Assembly (NCBI GenBank): GCA_910575005.1
Contig: CAJTCL010000006.1
Location: 1-64,000 of the forward strand
Source of the DNA: Lachnospiraceae bacterium
GTDB taxonomy: Bacteria; Bacillota; Clostridia; Lachnospirales; Lachnospiraceae
Direction of reading: 5' to 3'
Length of the DNA: 64,000 bases
Within the stretch, counting starts at the first letter, position 1; every line of letters begins with the position of its first letter. Of this stretch, positions 1 to 8,364 are shown one piece after another. The notes beneath the pieces are model-generated. The model made no database searches, had not been told where the DNA came from, and saw only the letters and a program-made list of their open reading frames with translations. The translations under genes and the position numbers were made by a program.

Positions 1-589
1 CTGTCACATAGAAGAATGACATTTTTCTTTTCCATCAACTCAGGCATAACCTGCCGTATCATGGAAACGGCAAGTTCCAGTTTGGACTCTTTTTTCTGCC
101 ACATCCGGTAAGAAAGCGGTACAGACTGGTAAACGATCCTGTCCTTATCCCATACAGGGACGCAGAGCATGACGCTTACAAAGCAGTGCCCGTTCAGGTA
201 GCCACTGCCATTATGTGCGGCATGGTCGAACAATTTTGAGACATTCTCAAACTTTTTCCCGAATTTAGGGACAATGGTATCATCAATGCATAAAAAAACA
301 GGCTGAGTCTCTAAAGGTTTTGGGATTAGTTTCAATGTCATAGATGCCGTGACATTCATAAACCTGGAATAATCCACTTTGGCATAGGAACAGGCATAGT
401 AAAAGGCATTCAGGGATTTATCTGTAAGCTTTGACAGAAAATGCCTGTAAAGGAAACGGATGGAATCAGCGGATTCCAGAGCCACTATAGAAAGCAAAAG
501 CAGGATTAATGTCTGGGCAGTGGGGGTGGAACAGGTTTCAAAATAATTGTAAAAATAATGATAAAGTCTACCAATTAAAGTTTTTTCAT
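1..589 (-). pseudogene. DDE transposase, 3' end beyond window, 5' frameshift
   Basis: Reading the minus strand leftward from about 589 gives a long transposase frame that runs off the window edge. It contains ESADSIRFLYRHFL, YAKVDYSRFMNVTAS, CIDDTIVPKFGKKFENVSK and DHAAHNGSGYLNGHCFVS, typical of IS4-like DDE transposases in Clostridia; the Asp pair in CIDDT is a likely catalytic position. The only plausible start, ATG at 589-587, is followed by six A residues and reads MKKL-stop. With seven A residues it would read MKKTLIGRLYHY and continue into the transposase. A one-base loss in the A-run (real or a sequencing error) is therefore inferred. Family assignment is from recognition only. Confidence 0.75.
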
Positions 590-666: not shown

Positions 667-1052
667 GTGCGGCATTTTTTTATTAAAAAAGTTGTAAACT
701 GGTGTTTGAATAAACAAATTAAGAGGAAAAATAGGCCAGGTTGGGTTCGAGTAAATGGTAATGAAAAAACATGTGAATCAAAAATAGATATAGAAGAAAT
801 AATAAATAAATTGCAAGGCGATAATATATATGAATTTAAGGTGTTTATAGAATATGTTAAGGATGTTGGAAACTATAAAGTAAAATTTAGAAATAAATTT
901 ACAAATTATTTAGAAAGAGCAGAAATCTGTAAAAAAGAATGCATACTAAAAGAAGGTATTAGTGAATATGTTTTTTATGCAAATTATTATGATGAGTATG
1001 AATATGAATGGTTTTATATAGGAAGGGCAATTGAAATTTTTTATACTAAATT
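667..1052 (+). pseudogene. 5' part of STAND-ATPase partner gene, cut by IS982 element
   Basis: This frame encodes about 129 residues before the IS982 insertion at 1053. Its last native codons (ACT AAA TT) continue exactly in frame into 2176 when the element and one AAATT copy are removed. The original product therefore continued as ...YTKLAIDYSII... into the 2176-2842 segment, giving roughly 350 residues. I do not recognise a domain here; it is acidic/aromatic and AT-rich (YDEYEYEWFYIGRAIEIFY). The true start is uncertain: ATG 667 lies next to the end of the upstream transposon remnant, so the first 10-15 codons may be foreign and the 5' end may be lost. By position it would be the effector or adaptor partner of the ATPase at 2854. 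Confidence 0.6.
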
Positions 1053-1066
1053 AACCTGTTGTGCTA
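1053..1066. repeat. Left terminal inverted repeat of the IS982 element
   Basis: AACCTGTTGTGCTA, the reverse complement of 2157-2170, and directly preceded by target duplication AAATT at 1048-1052. Confidence 0.92.
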
Positions 1067-1141
1067 TTTTATTTTGAAACGCTTGAAATGTCTAAAAACG
1101 CAAAGAATCCCTGTACCTTCTGTTTTTCCCTTTTGGATATA

Positions 1142-2080
1142 TCAGAAAATCAGACGCTTTATTTGAGCAAGTTCGCAGGTTTCATGAAAAATGCTGTTTA
1201 ATGCCAGACAAAGGTTATATGCCAGGATCTTATTCGTGATCCTGGTACACAGCCCTTGAAAACTACGGGCAAGTACTCTTTCTGCATTTAACTGCCCGCT
1301 TAACTGTGAAAATACAGTTTCCACACGGCGCCTCTGCTTGAATATCATCTGGCGAACTTCCCTGGGCCAATCCGTTTTGCTGTTGGAGCGTTTTAAGGCC
1401 ATCAGGCAGACCCCGTGGCTGTTTAGGTCCTGTGTGAGCGTTTCCCCTACATAGCCTTTGTCGCCAAGGACCACAAACCCTTCCTTTCCTTGCACAAGGT
1501 CGCGCAGGCCTTCTCTGTCGTCTGTGGATGCTGCCGTGATTTCAAATGCAGTGATGTATCCTTCTAGGGTGATCAAGGCATGCACTTTGTAGCCAAAATA
1601 GGTTTCTTTTTTGGAAGGGCATTTTCCGTAATCTGCACCATATCCGCGGAAAGAACGGCAATAACGCGCCCTTCCAAACTTGCAGACGGCAAGCGGAAAG
1701 CTATCCACTATCAAATACCTGCTGGCAGGGATGGGAAATACGCAGGACAACTTCTGCCTGAGCAACTCCGTTGTCTTTAGGAGAGCCCGTCTTGTCCGAT
1801 TAAAACGGCTCCGGCTACAAAGGGTTGGAAACAGATGTCGGTAATTGCGTTTTATAAAGGAATACCATGCGTTTTCGGAATCAATACCAGCTAATTCACC
1901 ACAAATGCTGATCGTGATGATCTCAGAGTCAGACAACTTGGCGTGTAGGACATGGCGTCTTGTGACGACTTCTGGCGGCGCGAAACATCGATACAGATCA
2001 TCAATAATGACATAAACTGTTAAAATAAAATCTTCAAAAGCAGCTATGAGTGTGGTATTATTATCGTAGAACTTCAACAT
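1142..2080 (-). CDS. IS982 family transposase
   Basis: A 312-residue transposase starting at ATG 2080, preceded by AAAGGAGGAATCATT, a strong ribosome binding site; an upstream extension of ten residues is open but lacks such a site. The protein begins MLKFYDNNTTLIAAFEDFI and contains YLIVDSFPLAVC (first catalytic Asp region), GYKVHALITLEGY, VVLGDKGYVGE (second Asp) and RRRVETVFSQL (Glu), the DDE triad layout of the IS982/IS5 group. It catalyses cut-and-paste movement of the surrounding element. The frame is intact and the ends are perfect, so the element may still be active. Confidence 0.92.
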   Translation of the reverse strand: MLKFYDNNTTLIAAFEDFILTVYVIIDDLYRCFAPPEVVTRRHVLHAKLSDSEIITISICGELAGIDSENAWYSFIKRNYRHLFPTLCSRSRFNRTRRALLKTTELLRQKLSCVFPIPASRYLIVDSFPLAVCKFGRARYCRSFRGYGADYGKCPSKKETYFGYKVHALITLEGYITAFEITAASTDDREGLRDLVQGKEGFVVLGDKGYVGETLTQDLNSHGVCLMALKRSNSKTDWPREVRQMIFKQRRRVETVFSQLSGQLNAERVLARSFQGLCTRITNKILAYNLCLALNSIFHETCELAQIKRLIF

Positions 2081-2156
2081 AATGATTCCTCCTTTCAGAA
2101 ATTGTATCACTACAAATAGGATAGCATATTTTGTGAAGTTCTTTTAATTTTTTATC

Positions 2157-2170
2157 TAGCACAACAGGTT
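2157..2170. repeat. Right terminal inverted repeat of the IS982 element
   Basis: TAGCACAACAGGTT, complementary to 1053-1066, directly followed by the second copy of the AAATT target duplication (2171-2175). Confidence 0.92.
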
Positions 2171-2175
2171 AAATT

Positions 2176-2842
2176 AGCTATTGATTATTCAATCATTGCG
2201 GAAAAGAAAACAATAAGATATGATTCAGAATATGAAACAGCATATAAGAATTATTTGATACAAGATGCATGGGATGAACTTGAACAAATTGAAGATGACA
2301 CAAAATTTATTTATGGGGTATATGTTCTGTCAAAAATACTTACTGGGGAAAAGCAGAATAGTTTAAAACAAGATTTTGATGAATTAATTAATAAATTGGT
2401 ATATGAAAATTATTCCATAAAGGAAGAAACAGAAATTAACAATAATTTTAAAGAGATGGACGAGAATTCTCATGAGAAAAGGAAGATGATACATATGTCA
2501 AAAGGTGAAACGTTTAATATAAGTGGTGGGCAAGTCAATATTTCTAATGATAATGCAACAATAAATGCCACACAAAATAACGGTGTGGGTGTAGATAAAA
2601 TAGAAGATATTATAAAAGGGATTACAGAAAATCTTTCTAGACTGGACAGCAAAGAAGCGGATAAACTGGCAGATATTTTAGATATGGCAAAAGATGAATT
2701 GACAAAATCAGAACCAAAAGTGAACAGGTTGAAGAACTGCTTGGCATTGCTTGCGCCAATGTTTACAGTTTCAAATGGAATTCCAACATTAGCAATGAAC
2801 TTGCATAGGTTACAAGATTTTATAATGCAGTATATAAAATAG
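2176..2842 (+). pseudogene. 3' part of STAND-ATPase partner with amyloid-like motif
   Basis: Continuation of the gene begun before 1053. A TTG at 2255 could in principle restart translation (195 residues), but the frame is open back to the IS junction at 2176. About 25 residues (near 2505-2582) read ETFNISGGQVNISNDNATI then NATQNN, a Gln/Asn/Gly-rich beta-prone stretch. It is followed by a charged helical tail (KIEDIIKGITENLSRL, DKLADILDMAKDEL) and a hydrophobic C-terminus. The motif QVNI..DN....TQNN recurs at the N-terminus of the ATPase encoded 11 bp downstream, with 10 of 17 positions identical. Shared short Q/N motifs between an NLR and its neighbour are the hallmark of amyloid-signalling pairs. 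The function here is inference; no enzymatic domain is recognised. Confidence 0.6.
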
Positions 2843-2853
2843 GGGGAAATAAA

Positions 2854-5010
2854 ATGGCAGAGAATTCGGGAGTGGTAGTAAATTTATATAAGGGTGCACA
2901 GGTTAATATAGCATTAGATAATGGAAATGTGTATTCTACCCAAAATAATGTGAAATTGAAATCAAATATTCAGTCTAATATAATAACATATGGTCAAGAT
3001 ATTACCTTCACTAATAATTTTGTTGGAAGAGAAGACGAGATAAACATGGTACTAAAAAAGCTTGAAAAAAATGATCGTATCCTTATTAGCGGAATGGGTG
3101 GGATTGGTAAAACTGCTATTTTGAAAAAGTTATATCATATTATAGTGGAATCAAATAAAAATAGTAATAAAAAATTTGGGTATTTTGAGTATAAATTATC
3201 AATGGATGATACTATTTATAATGCTTTGGAATTTGAAAAAACAGGTGATAGATATCTGGATATGCAAAAGGCTAAAAAAGTACTAGAGAATTATGCAAAT
3301 TGTGATGAAGTGATAATTTTTATTGATAATATTCCTAACCAAAAATATGAGGAAATCCAGAAATTAGCAAGTGTTAAAGGAAAAATTATTATTACATCAA
3401 GACAAAATGAATATGAGAATTATGAGACAGTATTTATTGATAAAATGAGTACGGAAGAATGTAAAAAACTATTTGAAAGAGAGAGTGGAATATATACAGA
3501 TGCACGGGACTTAGATTATATTATTAATTCTCTCATTGGACGACATACGTTGACTGTAAAACTGTTAGCAAATATAGCGAAAAAAAAGCAATGGACAATA
3601 GAAGATATAAATAATAAATTAACAGAGATAGGTTTTAAAATAGAGTATAGGGATTTGGGTAAAACAACAAATATATTGTCTGAGTATAAGAAACTATATT
3701 CAATTTCAGGATTAAGCAGTTGTGAAAAGAATATATTGGAGGGTTTTTCTTTATTAAGAGAAGCACAATTAGATAAAAATAAATATCAGAAATTTTTAGC
3801 ACAGGATGCGAAAGATGCGGAAAATGATAAATTATATGAATTATATGAAAAGGGTTGGCTAGAAAGAAATAAAGACGAATTTTCGATTCATCCAGTCTTT
3901 GCAGAATTTATTGCAGAATTGGATGAAATTAGTATTGTTAGACATGAAGGATTATATGAGTTTATAAAATCATTGTGTTTAGAATTTGATGATTTAACCA
4001 TATTAAGCAAACAAGCTTATTTAACAGAATTAATTTCATTTGGCAAAAATGTGTCGATAAAGTGTGGAGTGGAAAATGAACTGTATAATATCGCATTTAT
4101 TGCCAAGTATTTTACGGAATACAATAATGCCATTATTATATTGCAAAGAATAGGAAAGGTTTATGAAGAAAATTATATAAAGGCACAATTGTTGTTGGGA
4201 GAAATTTATACAGATTTGAGTGATTTTGAAAAAGCTAACGAATGCTTTGATAGATTTAAGGAAATTTGGCCAAACAAAGATAAGGTAAGATTATCATATT
4301 TATATATTGAATATAAAATAGATTATTCCTTATATTTAGAAAAAAGTTCTAAAACAGATTCAGATAGAAAGAAGGCAATTATAGAACTTGAAGAACTTCT
4401 GAAATTGGAAATGGATGAGCTAACACAAGGTAAAATCTATAATTGTTTGGGAGGTTTTTATACAAACTTAAAAGGAAATGTTGAAAATTTAAATAAAGCG
4501 TTGGAGTATCATAAAAGAGCAAAGGCTATTAGAGAAAAAAGTAGCGCTAATATTATGGATTTAGCAAGAACTTATAATAATATTGCTAATGTTTATTTTT
4601 ATAAGTCAAAAATCGAAAATGAGAAAGAAGGAAATTTGAAAAATGCAGAAAAATACTACATAAAATCCATCGATTTACGGAAAAAGGTATTAAATAATAA
4701 TCATCCAGATATTGCAAGGGTTTTAGTTAATTTGGGCAATGTTTATGTGGAGCAAAGTAAATATAAAGATGCATTGTCTGTTATGAAAAAGGGTTTAAAG
4801 ATCAGAGAAAAGTCTTTAGGTAGTTGTTCTGTAGAGGTGGGAGGTACATATGCTAATATGGCAAGAGCGTATGAAAAGTTACAGGATAAAGAAAATGTAT
4901 TGAAATGTGTGAAAAAAGCGAAAGAAATATTTTTATTGTTATATGGGGAGAAATCAGATAAGTACATAAATTTATGCAAGAATTACGAAAATGTTATTAG
5001 CGATATGTAA
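2854..5010 (+). CDS. NB-ARC STAND ATPase with TPR repeats (bacterial NLR-like)
   Basis: A 718-residue protein preceded by TAGGGGGAAATAAA. Residues 6-32 form a Q/N-rich motif (QVNI at 16-19, TQNN at 29-32) shared with the upstream protein. An NB-ARC ATPase follows: FVGREDEI at 56-63, Walker A GMGGIGKT at 80-87, Walker B VIIFIDNI at 153-160 and sensor-like IIITSRQ at 178-184. A winged-helix region with IHPVF comes next, and from about 430 to the end there are tetratricopeptide-like helices (NLGNVYVEQSKYKDAL, NNIANVYF). Such STAND proteins are nucleotide-driven switches that oligomerise on sensing a trigger, often in anti-phage immunity. It lacks a fused effector domain, which suggests the effector is the adjacent gene. 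The AT-rich codon use suggests horizontal transfer. The domain call is firm; the defence role is inferred. Confidence 0.82.
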   Translation: MAENSGVVVNLYKGAQVNIALDNGNVYSTQNNVKLKSNIQSNIITYGQDITFTNNFVGREDEINMVLKKLEKNDRILISGMGGIGKTAILKKLYHIIVESNKNSNKKFGYFEYKLSMDDTIYNALEFEKTGDRYLDMQKAKKVLENYANCDEVIIFIDNIPNQKYEEIQKLASVKGKIIITSRQNEYENYETVFIDKMSTEECKKLFERESGIYTDARDLDYIINSLIGRHTLTVKLLANIAKKKQWTIEDINNKLTEIGFKIEYRDLGKTTNILSEYKKLYSISGLSSCEKNILEGFSLLREAQLDKNKYQKFLAQDAKDAENDKLYELYEKGWLERNKDEFSIHPVFAEFIAELDEISIVRHEGLYEFIKSLCLEFDDLTILSKQAYLTELISFGKNVSIKCGVENELYNIAFIAKYFTEYNNAIIILQRIGKVYEENYIKAQLLLGEIYTDLSDFEKANECFDRFKEIWPNKDKVRLSYLYIEYKIDYSLYLEKSSKTDSDRKKAIIELEELLKLEMDELTQGKIYNCLGGFYTNLKGNVENLNKALEYHKRAKAIREKSSANIMDLARTYNNIANVYFYKSKIENEKEGNLKNAEKYYIKSIDLRKKVLNNNHPDIARVLVNLGNVYVEQSKYKDALSVMKKGLKIREKSLGSCSVEVGGTYANMARAYEKLQDKENVLKCVKKAKEIFLLLYGEKSDKYINLCKNYENVISDM

Positions 5011-5398: not shown

Positions 5399-6403
5399 GT
5401 GGATAATTGTGGAGAAATTCTTTTATATCAATCTGAAGACGGTTTGACAAAGATTGAAGTTAAAATACAGGACGAAACAGTGTGGCTGACATAACAGCAA
5501 ATGGCAGATTTGTTCCAAACGTCGCGAACAAATGTTGTAGAACATATCGCACATATATATGAGGAATTTGAATTAGATGAAAACTCAACCTGTCGGAAAT
5601 TCCGACAGGTTCGCAAGGAAGGAAATCGCGAAGTATCACGAGAGATGCCCTACTATAATCTTGATATGATTATCTCTCTTGGTTATAGAGTGAAATCCAG
5701 AATAGCTACGAATTTTCGGCGTTGGGCGACAGAACGTTTGAAAGAATATATGATAAAAGGCTTTACTATGGATGATGAGCGATTAAAAAATCTGGGAGGT
5801 GGAAATTACTGGAAAGAACTATTAGATCGTATACGGGATATCCGTTCTTCGGAAAAAGTGATGTATCGGCAGGTACTTGACCTTTATGCTACAAGTGTGG
5901 ATTATAATCCCAAAAGCAATGAATCTATTGCTTTTTTTTAAATGGTTCAAAATAAGCTTCATTATGCAGCACATGGGCATACGGTAGCAGAAGTAATCTA
6001 TGAACGTGCAAATGCAGAAAAGCAATTTATGGGGCTAAAAAGTTTTTCTGGCGATTTTCCAACATTAAAAGATATCGGTATTGCAAAGAATTATTTAAGT
6101 GAGGAAGAATTGAAGATTTTAAACAATATTGTATCGGGATATTTTGATTTTGCAGAAGTTCAGGCTATGCGCCATAATCCTATGTATATGTCTGATTATG
6201 TAGAGCATCTTGATAATGTATTGAAAACGACTGGAGAAAAACTATTGCAGGGAGTAGGAACAGTTAGCCATGCACAGGCAATCGAAAAAGCAACAGAGGA
6301 ATATAAAAAATATCAGGTTCAGAACTTATCACCAGTTGAAGAAGAATATTTAGAAAGCATTAAAAACATACATAGTACAGCAAAGAAAAAGGCGAAGAAA
6401 TAA
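5399..6403 (+). pseudogene. RhuM-family protein gene with two in-frame TAA codons
   Basis: One continuous frame of about 334 codons, from GTG 5399 (after GGGGGAGTTATAA) to TAA 6401-6403, matches the full length of RhuM ('virulence protein RhuM', DUF/Fic-adjacent family PF13310). Segments include ILLYQSEDGLTKIEVK, QQMADLFQTSRTNVVEHI, MIISLGYRVKSRIATNFRRW, VQNKLHYAAHGHT and MYMSDYVEHLDN. It is broken by TAA at 5492-5494 (WLT*QQMADLF) and TAA at 5939-5941 (FF*MVQNKLHYA). No frameshift is present, and homology continues in the same frame after each stop. The RhuM biochemical role is unknown; relatives are common beside restriction systems. It could be a decaying pseudogene or a gene needing readthrough. 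Confidence 0.75.
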
Positions 6404-6843: not shown

Positions 6844-7434
6844 GTGCCAAAGAGTTATTCTGAGCAGGAAAAAGAATATATAAGGAAACGCTTAAAAGAA
6901 GAAGCGGCAAAATGCCTTGTGAAGTATGGCGTTCGCCGCACGACGGTTGATGAAATCGTAAAGCGGGTCAATATTCCCAAAGGGACTTTTTATCTCTTTT
7001 ATAAATCAAAGGAACTGCTTTTGTTTGATGTTATTCAGGAACAGCAGGAGAATGTCAATCGTGAGCTGTATCAGGCTATTTCTAATGTCGCCGATACGGA
7101 ATTTTCAGCGGAAAGGCTGACTGATGTGATTTTCGGGTTTTATAAAATGACAGAGAAAATGCTGATTTTGAAAATGCTTGATGTCAATGAAGTGGAATTG
7201 CTTGCACGTAAGCTGCCGCGGGAAATAGTAGAGGAGCATTTTCAGGACGATACGGATACGATTGAAAAGATGCTTGCCCTGCTTCCCGTAAAAAAAGAAG
7301 TAGACATAAAGGCTGTCAGTGCCGCATTCCACGCAATTTATTTTGCAACGCTGCATAAAGCGGAGATAGGTGAAGAAGAGTATGATGAGGCACTGCGTAT
7401 TTTAATTTATGGAATTGTAACACAATTTATCTAA
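6844..7434 (+). CDS. TetR/AcrR family transcriptional regulator
   Basis: A 196-residue regulator. GTG 6844 is chosen because AGAGGTGAGG lies just upstream and the perfect promoter at 6776-6804 sits before it; the longer frame from 6706 would start upstream of that promoter. The N-terminal helix-turn-helix is clear (KYGVRRTTVDEIVKRVNIPKGTFYLFYKSKE), and the rest is a helical ligand-binding domain. It is followed by three ABC-transporter genes preceded by an inverted repeat. By analogy with the family it probably represses that exporter and itself until an inducing compound binds. The inducer is unknown. Confidence 0.88.
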   Translation: MPKSYSEQEKEYIRKRLKEEAAKCLVKYGVRRTTVDEIVKRVNIPKGTFYLFYKSKELLLFDVIQEQQENVNRELYQAISNVADTEFSAERLTDVIFGFYKMTEKMLILKMLDVNEVELLARKLPREIVEEHFQDDTDTIEKMLALLPVKKEVDIKAVSAAFHAIYFATLHKAEIGEEEYDEALRILIYGIVTQFI

Positions 7435-7435
7435 A

Positions 7436-7458
7436 AAGTCCGGCTATCAGCCGGACTT
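7436..7458 (+). terminator. Short GC-rich hairpin after tetR
   Basis: AAGTCCGGCT (7436-7445), loop ATC, AGCCGGACTT (7449-7458): a perfect 10-bp stem directly after the stop codon. No T-run follows, so it is a weak terminator or an RNA-stability/attenuation element between tetR and the exporter genes. Confidence 0.5.
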
Positions 7459-7474
7459 AAAACAAGCCATTAAT

Positions 7475-7498
7475 TGACTATTAAAATTTATTTAGTCA
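7475..7498 (+). promoter_or_regulatory. Candidate TetR operator/promoter before the ABC operon
   Basis: Inverted repeat TGACTA-12-TAGTCA about 20 bp before the ABC ATPase start. It overlaps a possible -35 TTGACT and lies just before TATAGT and an AAGGAGG site. The same TTTAGTCA half-site occurs near the tetR start. Confidence 0.5.
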
Positions 7499-7518
7499 TA
7501 TAGTATAAGGAGGAATAT

Positions 7519-8364
7519 ATGATACAAGTTAGCAATCTTTCGTTCAGCTATACAAAGCAGCCTTTTATTTCTGATATGAGCTTTTCTGTTTCTTCGGGTG
7601 AAATCTTTGGATTTTTAGGACCGTCTGGGGCAGGTAAAAGCACATTGCAAAAAATATTGATAGGGCTGCTTACTAATTATCAAGGTTCTGCGATGGTAAA
7701 CGGCATTGAATGCAAGGAACACACAAAGCATTTTTATGAAGATATAGGGGTGGATTTTGAATTTTCAACCATGTATGAAAAATTGACTGCGAAAGAAAAT
7801 CTGAGGTTTTTCTCATCGCTGTATGAAAAAAAGCCGCGTCCGATTGAGGAACTTTTGGAAATGGTAGGATTAGAGCACGACGCAGATAAGTGCGTATCCG
7901 ATTATTCAAAGGGTATGAAATCCCGCTTAAACTTTATAAAAGCATTGCTGCATGACCCGCTTTTGCTTTGCCTTGACGAGCCGACCAGTGGACTTGATCC
8001 CACAAACAGTCGTATGATGAAAGATATGATTTTAGCGGAAAAGGCAAAAGGGAAAACTATTCTTTTGACAACGCATAATATGCAGGATGCAGCCGAGCTT
8101 TGTGACAGAGTAGCATTTATTGTGGGTGGCAAAATATGCGCTCTTGACAGCCCGCATAATCTGATTATGTCAAAAGGTGCGGCAACCGTAACTTATACAT
8201 GGATCGAGAATGGGGAGCATAGTGCAAGCTGTCCTCTCGAACACTTATCTTCGGATGAACGATTGAAGAGTTTGATTGCTGAAAATCGTCTGCAGTCCAT
8301 TCATAGCAGCGAGCCAACTTTAAATGACATTTTTATGGATATTACGGGGAGGACGCTGCTATGA
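7519..8364 (+). CDS. ABC transporter ATP-binding protein
   Basis: A 281-residue ATPase starting 8 bp after AAGGAGG. Walker A GPSGAGKST at 34-42, the ABC signature in the variant form YSKGMKSRL, Walker B LLLCLDEPTSGLDP and switch His TTHNMQD are all present. This 'YSKGM' signature is usual in DrrA/CcmA-like exporters. The C-terminal 80 residues form a small accessory domain. The stop overlaps the next start (ATGA). Together with the two following membrane proteins it should form an ABC-2-type exporter; the substrate (drug, peptide or lipid) is not evident. It is probably controlled by the upstream TetR protein. Confidence 0.9.
   Translation: MIQVSNLSFSYTKQPFISDMSFSVSSGEIFGFLGPSGAGKSTLQKILIGLLTNYQGSAMVNGIECKEHTKHFYEDIGVDFEFSTMYEKLTAKENLRFFSSLYEKKPRPIEELLEMVGLEHDADKCVSDYSKGMKSRLNFIKALLHDPLLLCLDEPTSGLDPTNSRMMKDMILAEKAKGKTILLTTHNMQDAAELCDRVAFIVGGKICALDSPHNLIMSKGAATVTYTWIENGEHSASCPLEHLSSDERLKSLIAENRLQSIHSSEPTLNDIFMDITGRTLL

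Follow-up and report, generated by a model that had tools for sequence, protein, structure and literature searches.

Results

The gene pair and its shared motif

We analyzed a stretch of 64,000 nucleotides from a Lachnospiraceae bacterium (hereafter the window). Near its start lie a gene for a NOD-like receptor (NLR), that is, a protein of the signal transduction ATPases with numerous domains (STAND), and, immediately upstream, the remains of a second gene, which we call the effector gene. The products of these two genes carry the same short motif. The features of the pair are as follows; L067 is a closely related locus, described in the next section.

667-1053, plus strand: middle piece of the broken effector gene; 78% identity to L067, corresponding to the L067 effector from about residue 154
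1054-2170: insertion sequence (IS) element interrupting the effector gene, with an inverted repeat near each end (about 1055-1067 and 2157-2169); exact ends placed by eye
2171-2842, plus strand: 3' effector piece with the end of the middle region, the shared motif and the C-terminal helical module; 84% identity to L067
about 2531-2581, plus strand: shared motif, effector side, QVNISNDNATINATQNN
2582-2842, plus strand: the 86 residues behind the motif, forming the C-terminal module; sequence pattern helical, end moderately hydrophobic
2854-5010, plus strand: NLR with the short motif, an NB-ARC-like STAND NTPase (NB-ARC, 8.2e-6) and tetratricopeptide repeats (TPRs; TPR_12, 2e-24)
2899-2949, plus strand: shared motif, NLR side (NLR residues 16-32), QVNIALDNGNVYSTQNN

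The NLR frame encodes 718 amino acids (aa). In the profile search its NTPase matches start at about residue 55-60, so that only the short motif region lies N-terminal to the NTPase; the P-loop GGIGKT begins at residue 82. That is, the protein is an NLR-type STAND protein with a short N-terminal motif and no fused effector. The preliminary description of this DNA had stated the same, and both the frame and the start of the NTPase bear it out. The NLR also matches TPR_NPHP3 (5.2e-16, below the curated cut-off). None of the Pfam families of fungal amyloid motifs was among the matches listed at E<=10 for the NLR and the effector pieces, where 25 of the 33 families matched by the NLR were seen.

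The motif of the NLR is identical to that of the upstream gene at 10 of 17 positions, as the preliminary description had noticed. The Smith-Waterman score of the window pair was 60, and this score was reached by 1 of 5000 shuffles when both sequences were shuffled and by 2 of 5000 when the NLR side alone was shuffled; the match is therefore more than chance. Together with the homologous loci described below, this confirmed that the motif common to the two genes is real and conserved. The upstream gene does not start at position 667, as had been assumed. It is split by an IS element, and its 5' part lies on another contig.

The 3' effector piece matched the PADLOC profile PDC-M14B (5.7e-21) over its residues 115-220, corresponding to profile positions 158-259 of 261. 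For the piece at 667-1053, no Pfam, PADLOC or NCBIfam family was listed. The best mean hydropathy over 19 residues of the C-terminal module was 1.43, which is under the value of 1.6 used as the transmembrane (TM) threshold. The effector frame ends at 2842, twelve bases upstream of the NLR.

The intact homologue

A close relative, L067, comes from a metagenome-assembled genome of the same family, Lachnospiraceae (G663), and is 86% identical over the whole NLR. A contig search with the window NLR returned two loci, L067 and a TPR-only match (L068). The partner in L067 is an intact protein of 490 aa, consisting of a DUF4062 domain, a middle region, the motif (of which GGQ begins at residue 386) and the C-terminal module. 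DUF4062 (residues 6-91, 1.7e-27) is the sole Pfam family found there.

In a phmmer comparison, residues 2-171 of the L067 effector aligned to residues 3-168 of the 326 residues of KpSwz, the Swarozyc NADase (PDB 10wc), with an E value of 1.3e-38. Glu87 of the L067 effector aligns with the position that we read as the catalytic E97. The deposited KpSwz chain has Ala there, which we take to be the E97A construct of a preprint (PMC13174449, excerpt), with the numbering deduced. Judged from these alignments, the L067 partner belongs to the DUF4062 NADase family. The TIR-like DUF4062 domain with its catalytic Glu is thus found in L067, and in the window strain only as a detached frame.

A single pairwise comparison with L067 for each region gave ratios of nonsynonymous to synonymous substitution (dN/dS) of 0.25 for the NLR and of 0.58, 0.41 and 0.29 for the 5' piece, the region before the module and the module of the effector, respectively. 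Elsewhere in the same genome (G663:C63; L117:1-5467), a second DUF4062 protein of 347 aa lies near a 1049-aa frame that resembles a STAND NTPase by eye.

Conservation of the pair in further loci

We built a motif model (A4) of 27 positions from six sequences of four loci, namely both genes of the window and of L067, and one sequence each of L010 and L011. In 397 genomes of the family, this model found 13 places in 9 genomes at E<=0.05. The pairs of the window genome (G000) and of G663 were recovered, both being contained in the model. Locus L083 (G634), which is outside the model, has three motif places: a 126-aa protein of motif and module (9.6e-12), an NLR (9.6e-7) that is 38% identical to the window NLR, and an open frame of 289 codons (0.0033), whose motif precedes five hydrophobic segments that reach the TM threshold.

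The updated model (A5) found 8 places in 5 of 29 genomes of the window's own genus. These were the pairs of G1012 (L104; 1.3e-11 and 2.1e-8) and G996 (L105; 6.3e-7 and 2.1e-5), neither of which had contributed to the model, the own pair, a single place in G1001 (L106) and a weak match in G1011. The partner in L104-L106 is a 117-aa protein with the motif near its N-terminus, followed by the module (in L105 counted from an internal Met). The receptor of L104 is an NB-ARC-TPR protein 26% identical to the window NLR. The receptor of L105 has NACHT and pentapeptide repeats, which indicates that the motif is found on different STAND types. In L106, a 56-aa frame with the motif, missed by the model, is followed by frames that are transposase-like by eye; we infer from this arrangement that it is the stub of a receptor. 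No further locus came from searching the genera of G634 (1 genome) and G663 (5 genomes).

Thus the same motif in the product of the adjacent gene is conserved across the homologous loci window, L067, L083, L104 and L105, and in L106 with the stub. The preliminary description had named a lack of such co-conservation as the outcome that would speak against it; since pair and motif occur together in further loci, this is not what the profile searches found.

A class-wide motif search of 291 genomes gave the own pair, M14B proteins in G897 (4.6e-7) and G739 (0.0013), and two weak matches. Over the family, class and genus searches, whose genome sets overlap, 15 distinct places were found at E<=1e-3: 10 in pairs, one beside the stub, and four without an NLR (G152, G110 and G897, all three M14B, and G047, which is L010). 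When the six places contained in A4 (two in G000, two in G663, G152 and G047) were omitted, 6 of 9 were in pairs, 1 of 9 beside the stub, and 2 of 9 were M14B. Weak matches at E 0.007-0.05 (G135, G036, G221, G899, G904, G1011) were left uncounted; no pair was noticed around those in G135 and G1011.

The consensus of the motif in the 15 instances is GGQ-V/F-N-x-A-x-D-N/S-A-T-I/V-N-A-T-QNN. These instances, some of them close relatives, are invariant at positions 3, 17 and 18 (Q, Q, N), and contain no proline and 4 Lys or Arg in 285 residues (15 instances of 19 residues). In all eight partner-type proteins of alignment A6, 85-86 residues follow the motif, so that it does not form the C-terminus. 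This agrees with the variant layout that the preliminary description had proposed, and the position near the N-terminus of the 117-aa proteins of L104-L106 fits it as well.

We compared these sequences with other collections. Motif model A5 had no match among solved structures at E<=10. Module alignment A6 had 38 matches there at E<=1, of which designed helical proteins were the best (6.3e-5); we took these to be chance. The C-terminal module may resemble AbiTii-type proteins. The effector piece had no tblastn match in plasmids or phages, and NLR residues 1-300 had one weak match in plasmids and none in phages. In viral contigs, no match to the NLR, the effector piece or A6 was confirmed; a scan with alignment A2 gave two loci of M14B type.

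Other NLRs with other motifs

An NLR search in 299 genomes of the family found 23 places in 18 genomes. Three further NLRs of the window genome have a short N-terminus rich in Q, N and G and a same-strand neighbor with a matching motif. In L043 (G000:C7, 4167-8216, minus strand), the partner is a TIR_2 protein (5.5e-17). In L041 (G000:C31, 1271-3461, minus strand), a TM-like protein of 75 aa precedes the NLR, and L042 (G000:C26) is a near copy. The 75-aa pair is repeated in G999 of the same genus (L108). The partners in G242 are TIR_2 proteins (L044, and L045 by similarity), and G087 has a 151-aa partner (L049).

Some features of these loci were seen in passing. The NLR of L043 has a very long TPR array, and the motif class common to both of its genes is Y-V/T-GGN-x-NN, located N-terminally. 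The 75-aa protein has a hydrophobic N-terminal segment, and a motif of GDYVGRD/GSYVGRD type is present in both genes in all three loci (L041, L042, L108).

A short N-terminus with a matching neighbor was thus found at 7 of the 23 places (four in G000, two in G242, and G087). Five of these were shuffle-tested, L042 and L045 being near copies. Four of the tested pairs (L041, L043, L044, L049), two of them in the window genome, have motifs other than that of the window, matched within each pair. One NLR, at a contig end (G242:C15), lacks its N-terminus. Among the other 15 NLRs, 14 have about 120-355 residues ahead of the NTPase. Eight of the 15 have no same-strand upstream frame in the stretch examined; the seven with such a frame gave no convincing match (the best was L034, with 28 of 1000 shuffles as high; L047 had 794 of 1000). 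These results show that matching motifs accompany a short N-terminus, L047 being an exception.

Strength of the match between NLR and partner

We took ten NLR-partner pairs, aligned the N-terminal 60 residues of each NLR to the full-length partner, and ran 5000 shuffles per pair. The scores of the own pairs were 53-90. The numbers of shuffles that reached the score, with both sequences shuffled and with the NLR side alone shuffled, respectively, were as follows.

window: 1, 2
L067: 0, 0
L083: 0, 0
L104: 0, 0
L105: 2, 2
L106: 0, 0
L043: 2, 2
L041: 0, 0
L044: 0, 1
L049: 1, 0

NLRs with the motif of the window (the QVN class) scored 40-90 against QVN partners and 19-50 against other partners, and all four NLRs of other classes ranked their own partner first. 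Compared with the score ranks within the QVN class, which are given in the Discussion, these values indicate a match that is specific to the class rather than demonstrably to the locus.

We also scored 167 same-strand pairs of neighboring genes, drawn from the window and the fetched loci, using frames of at least 90 aa, which dropped the L041 and L106 pairs. A score of at least 50 was obtained by 11 of the 167, of which 9 were motif pairs (L045 nearly repeats L044); this share is inflated because the loci had been chosen for NLR, module or motif matches. The remaining two were a tandem pair of cytosine methyltransferases in L063, one member of which was identified by scan and the other by eye, and an M14B-HsdR pair (L092, 53). 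The latter (L092:7258-11041, M14B against the start of HsdR) is the lone high pair without explanation.

The motif outside NLR loci

The motif also occurs at the end of PDC-M14B, together with the module. This protein adjoins PDC-M14A. Profile matches identified M14B in L011, L012 and L092, and alignments or close similarity identified it in L013-L016, L063, L085, L086 and L093; M14A was assigned by profile in L011, L012, L016, L063, L064, L085 and L092. The M14A/B pair appears as a recurrent accessory of DNA-modification loci (L085, L086, L092, L093, L015, L016, L063, L064). The contexts are bacteriophage exclusion (BREX) with PglX in L015, L016 and L064 (PglZ was also scanned in L015), type I restriction-modification (RM) in L092 (HsdM, HsdS, HsdR) and L085 (HsdM, HsdR), and a C5 methyltransferase, acting on cytosine, in L063. 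L064 and L065 encode M14B-like proteins in which the module is kept and the motif is divergent.

No NLR was seen beside PDC-M14B, as judged by eye from lists of open reading frames (ORFs). The motif is therefore not exclusive to NLRs, and the earlier expectation that it would be restricted to NLR pairs was not supported. Full-length M14B was not found in the NLR loci: the matches in the window, L067, L104, L105 and L106 cover only about positions 150-260 of 261. Inspection by eye of the ORF lists for L067, L083 and L104-L106, where no profile scan was made, showed no M14A-like frame. A literature search gave no match for the name PDC-M14.

Locus L010 encodes a 304-aa protein of motif and module; Pfam gave nothing for it at E<=0.1, and an adjoining NLR was not seen. 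There (L010:6580-8142), the motif-module protein is followed by one of 205 aa that matches AbiGi weakly (0.0025, below the cut-off). In L011:8357-10976 (minus strand), a small contig with genes that are integrase-like by eye, PDC-M14A/B adjoins a protein with a reverse-transcriptase domain (RVT_1, 3.4e-11). In L013:10205-12577, a protein that by eye starts like a TIR/SEFIR domain lies upstream of PDC-M14A/B.

Disruption of the pair in the window strain

The window begins at base 1 of its contig (G000:C6), inside a transposase fragment. The features flanking the pair are as follows.

3-497, minus strand: transposase fragment at the edge of window and contig; open-ended ORF whose DDE_5 match is weak (1.7e-4) and falls below the family cut-off
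5501-5941 and 5942-6403, plus strand: RhuM-family gene in two pieces; Virulence_RhuM, 1.8e-54 for 5501-5938

The IS element within the effector gene encodes a transposase at 1142-2110 on the minus strand (DDE_Tnp_1_3, 1.3e-22). The 5' part of the effector gene, which codes for DUF4062, lies outside the window as a 177-aa frame near the start of contig G000:C32, with 93.7% DNA identity to L067 over 683 columns, and it adjoins a transposase-like frame. A simple deletion of the 5' end was dropped as an explanation, since this part turned up on C32. The contigs C32 and C6 would be the two sides of one further IS insertion, and the transposase fragment at 3-497 would then separate the effector pieces of the window from the 5' part. 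Because the effector gene is split by one IS element and presumably by a second, the window NLR is probably an orphan in this strain. The gene pair of the window is broken and cannot work as encoded.

In L067, a whole RhuM copy of 334 aa (7239-8240, 2.5e-111) lies behind the NLR.

Discussion

Comparison with known systems

The excerpts of the reports on bacterial amyloid signaling sequences (BASS) describe a short motif at the N-terminus of an NLR and in the protein of the adjacent gene, with TIR and CHAT partners being rarer (PMC7889193), and place BASS in Actinomycetes, Cyanobacteria and Archaea (PMC9815663). The window NLR resembles these systems in that its motif is N-terminal and recurs in the adjacent gene's protein. 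There are, however, three differences. The BASS motif ends the partner, whereas the partners here extend 85-86 residues beyond it or have it near the N-terminus of a small protein; BASS partners are typically of Bell type, whereas those here are DUF4062 or 117-aa proteins; and the family of the window is Lachnospiraceae. The QVN motif may still be one of BASS1-10. In a literature search of titles and abstract starts, no publication was recognized as describing the QVN motif.

According to the excerpt of the Swarozyc preprint, a DUF4062 NADase in a supramolecular complex causes abortive infection, and KpSwz senses the phage portal through its own auxiliary domain (PMC13174449). The L067 effector resembles KpSwz in its aligned N-terminal region and in the Glu at the position read as catalytic. 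In contrast, an auxiliary portal-binding domain of KpSwz type is unmatched in the L067 effector, which instead adjoins an NLR with a common motif.

PDC-M14 is a PADLOC candidate system of M14A, which is zinc-ribbon-like, and M14B. The last 105 or so residues of M14B, including the motif, match the effectors of the window and L067 and the 117-aa proteins. In contrast, the N-terminal half of M14B is unmatched, and M14A/B sit in BREX, type I RM or methyltransferase loci. The eukaryotic protein NPHP3 has TPRs at its C-terminal end. In NPHP3 and TEP1, also eukaryotic, DUF4062 stands next to NACHT in one chain, as stated in the excerpt of PMC13174449. The kinds of parts, DUF4062 and a STAND NTPase, are the same here, but DUF4062 and the NTPase with its TPRs belong to two separate proteins that have a motif in common.

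Proposed action of the pair

We think it rather probable that the window holds the broken remnant of a two-gene NLR defense cassette, in which oligomers of the NLR would recruit or template the effector through the motif. The matched motifs that related loci keep between neighbors suggest that immune sensors of bacteria may turn on cell-suicide proteins through a plug of this kind. In the intact form, as represented by L067, gene 1 would encode a TIR-like DUF4062 NADase that continues into a middle region, then the beta-prone motif (about 20 residues) and finally the helical module at the C-terminus, and gene 2 an NB-ARC-TPR NLR with the motif as its sole N-terminal feature. The TPRs would sense infection. 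STAND NTPases oligomerize, and the NTPase of this NLR may do the same. The clustered N-terminal motifs would then bind and stack with the motif of the partner, or template it, as the co-conservation of the two sequences suggests. The gathered DUF4062 domains may become active, deplete NAD+ and abort the infection, by analogy with the system in the excerpt of PMC13174449; motif contact and cross-beta stacking or templating are likewise drawn from the analogy with BASS and HET-s. In other loci, the same plug would serve the 117-aa protein of motif and module.

Several of our observations weigh against this proposal. A DUF4062 partner adjoining such an NLR was found in a single lineage only, that of the window and L067, and L067 does not count as independent evidence beside the window. 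Among the QVN-class NLRs, only that of L104 has its own partner in first place; for the other five it comes second, second, third, fifth and fifth. With L067 omitted, the identity within loci was weakly above that of permuted pairings (58 against a mean of 53.2; 7 of 120 permutations were as high). The TM frame of L083 has no ATG, GTG or TTG ahead of its motif, and the NLR of L047 has a short N-terminus of about 59 residues and no matching neighbor. Moreover, PDC-M14B (L011, L013, L085, L092, L093) and the L010 protein carry the motif and no NLR was seen next to them, which limits how far the motif can be said to exist for joining an NLR to an effector. Thus, of the interpretation offered in the preliminary description, the co-occurrence of pair and motif and the layout stood, while exclusivity to NLR pairs did not, and the pair of the window itself is broken.

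It is possible, although clearly less probable, that the motif forms the beginning of an ordinary oligomerization module, followed by the helices. NLR and partner would then form a fixed, non-amyloid complex, for example by strand addition or as a small beta-solenoid, and the signal would pass by stoichiometric recruitment instead of templating. The way in which motif and helical module travel together in PDC-M14B with no NLR seen speaks for this explanation, as do the distant M14B-like proteins of L064 and L065, which keep the module while the motif diverges. On the NLR side and on the TM frame of L083, however, the motif stands without the helical module. The lack of proline and the few Lys and Arg residues fit a beta-arch and would be expected of one, but are not specific to it.

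We consider it unlikely that both copies bind the same third molecule, such as a phage or host ligand, a nucleic acid or a membrane, with no need of mutual contact. The motif is common to proteins of quite different architectures and contexts, and the weak preference for partners within the class is in line with such a ligand. In contrast, the matching of neighbors by other motifs in L041, L043, L044 and L049 fits homotypic pairing better than a common ligand. That the similarity is a functionless by-product of low-complexity sequence rich in N and Q, or of local duplication, seems very improbable and is already disfavored. The motif is indeed short and rich in N, A, G and Q, but shuffles that preserve composition reached the scores in only 0-2 of 5000 cases, three of its positions are invariant, and it persists on different STAND types.

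Returning to the proposal of recruitment by the NLR, we speculate further, and with considerable doubt, that bacterial immunity uses the QVN motif as a shared plug. Such a plug would link unrelated sensors (NB-ARC-TPR, NACHT-pentapeptide), and possibly the PDC-M14 accessories found with BREX and type I RM, to interchangeable outputs, namely a DUF4062 NADase, a multi-TM protein and the 117-aa protein. If this is true, DNA-modification systems and NLR suicide systems use one assembly code.

The cassette would extend NLR signaling by matched motifs, which the excerpts cited above place so far mainly in filamentous bacteria and fungi, to a gut lineage of Lachnospiraceae type. It would also give the DUF4062 NADase an NLR trigger, and would link the same motif to an uncharacterized accessory of BREX and type I restriction loci. 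Since one genome holds several NLRs with differently matched motifs, insulated and shared signaling channels can be told apart directly by experiment in this organism.

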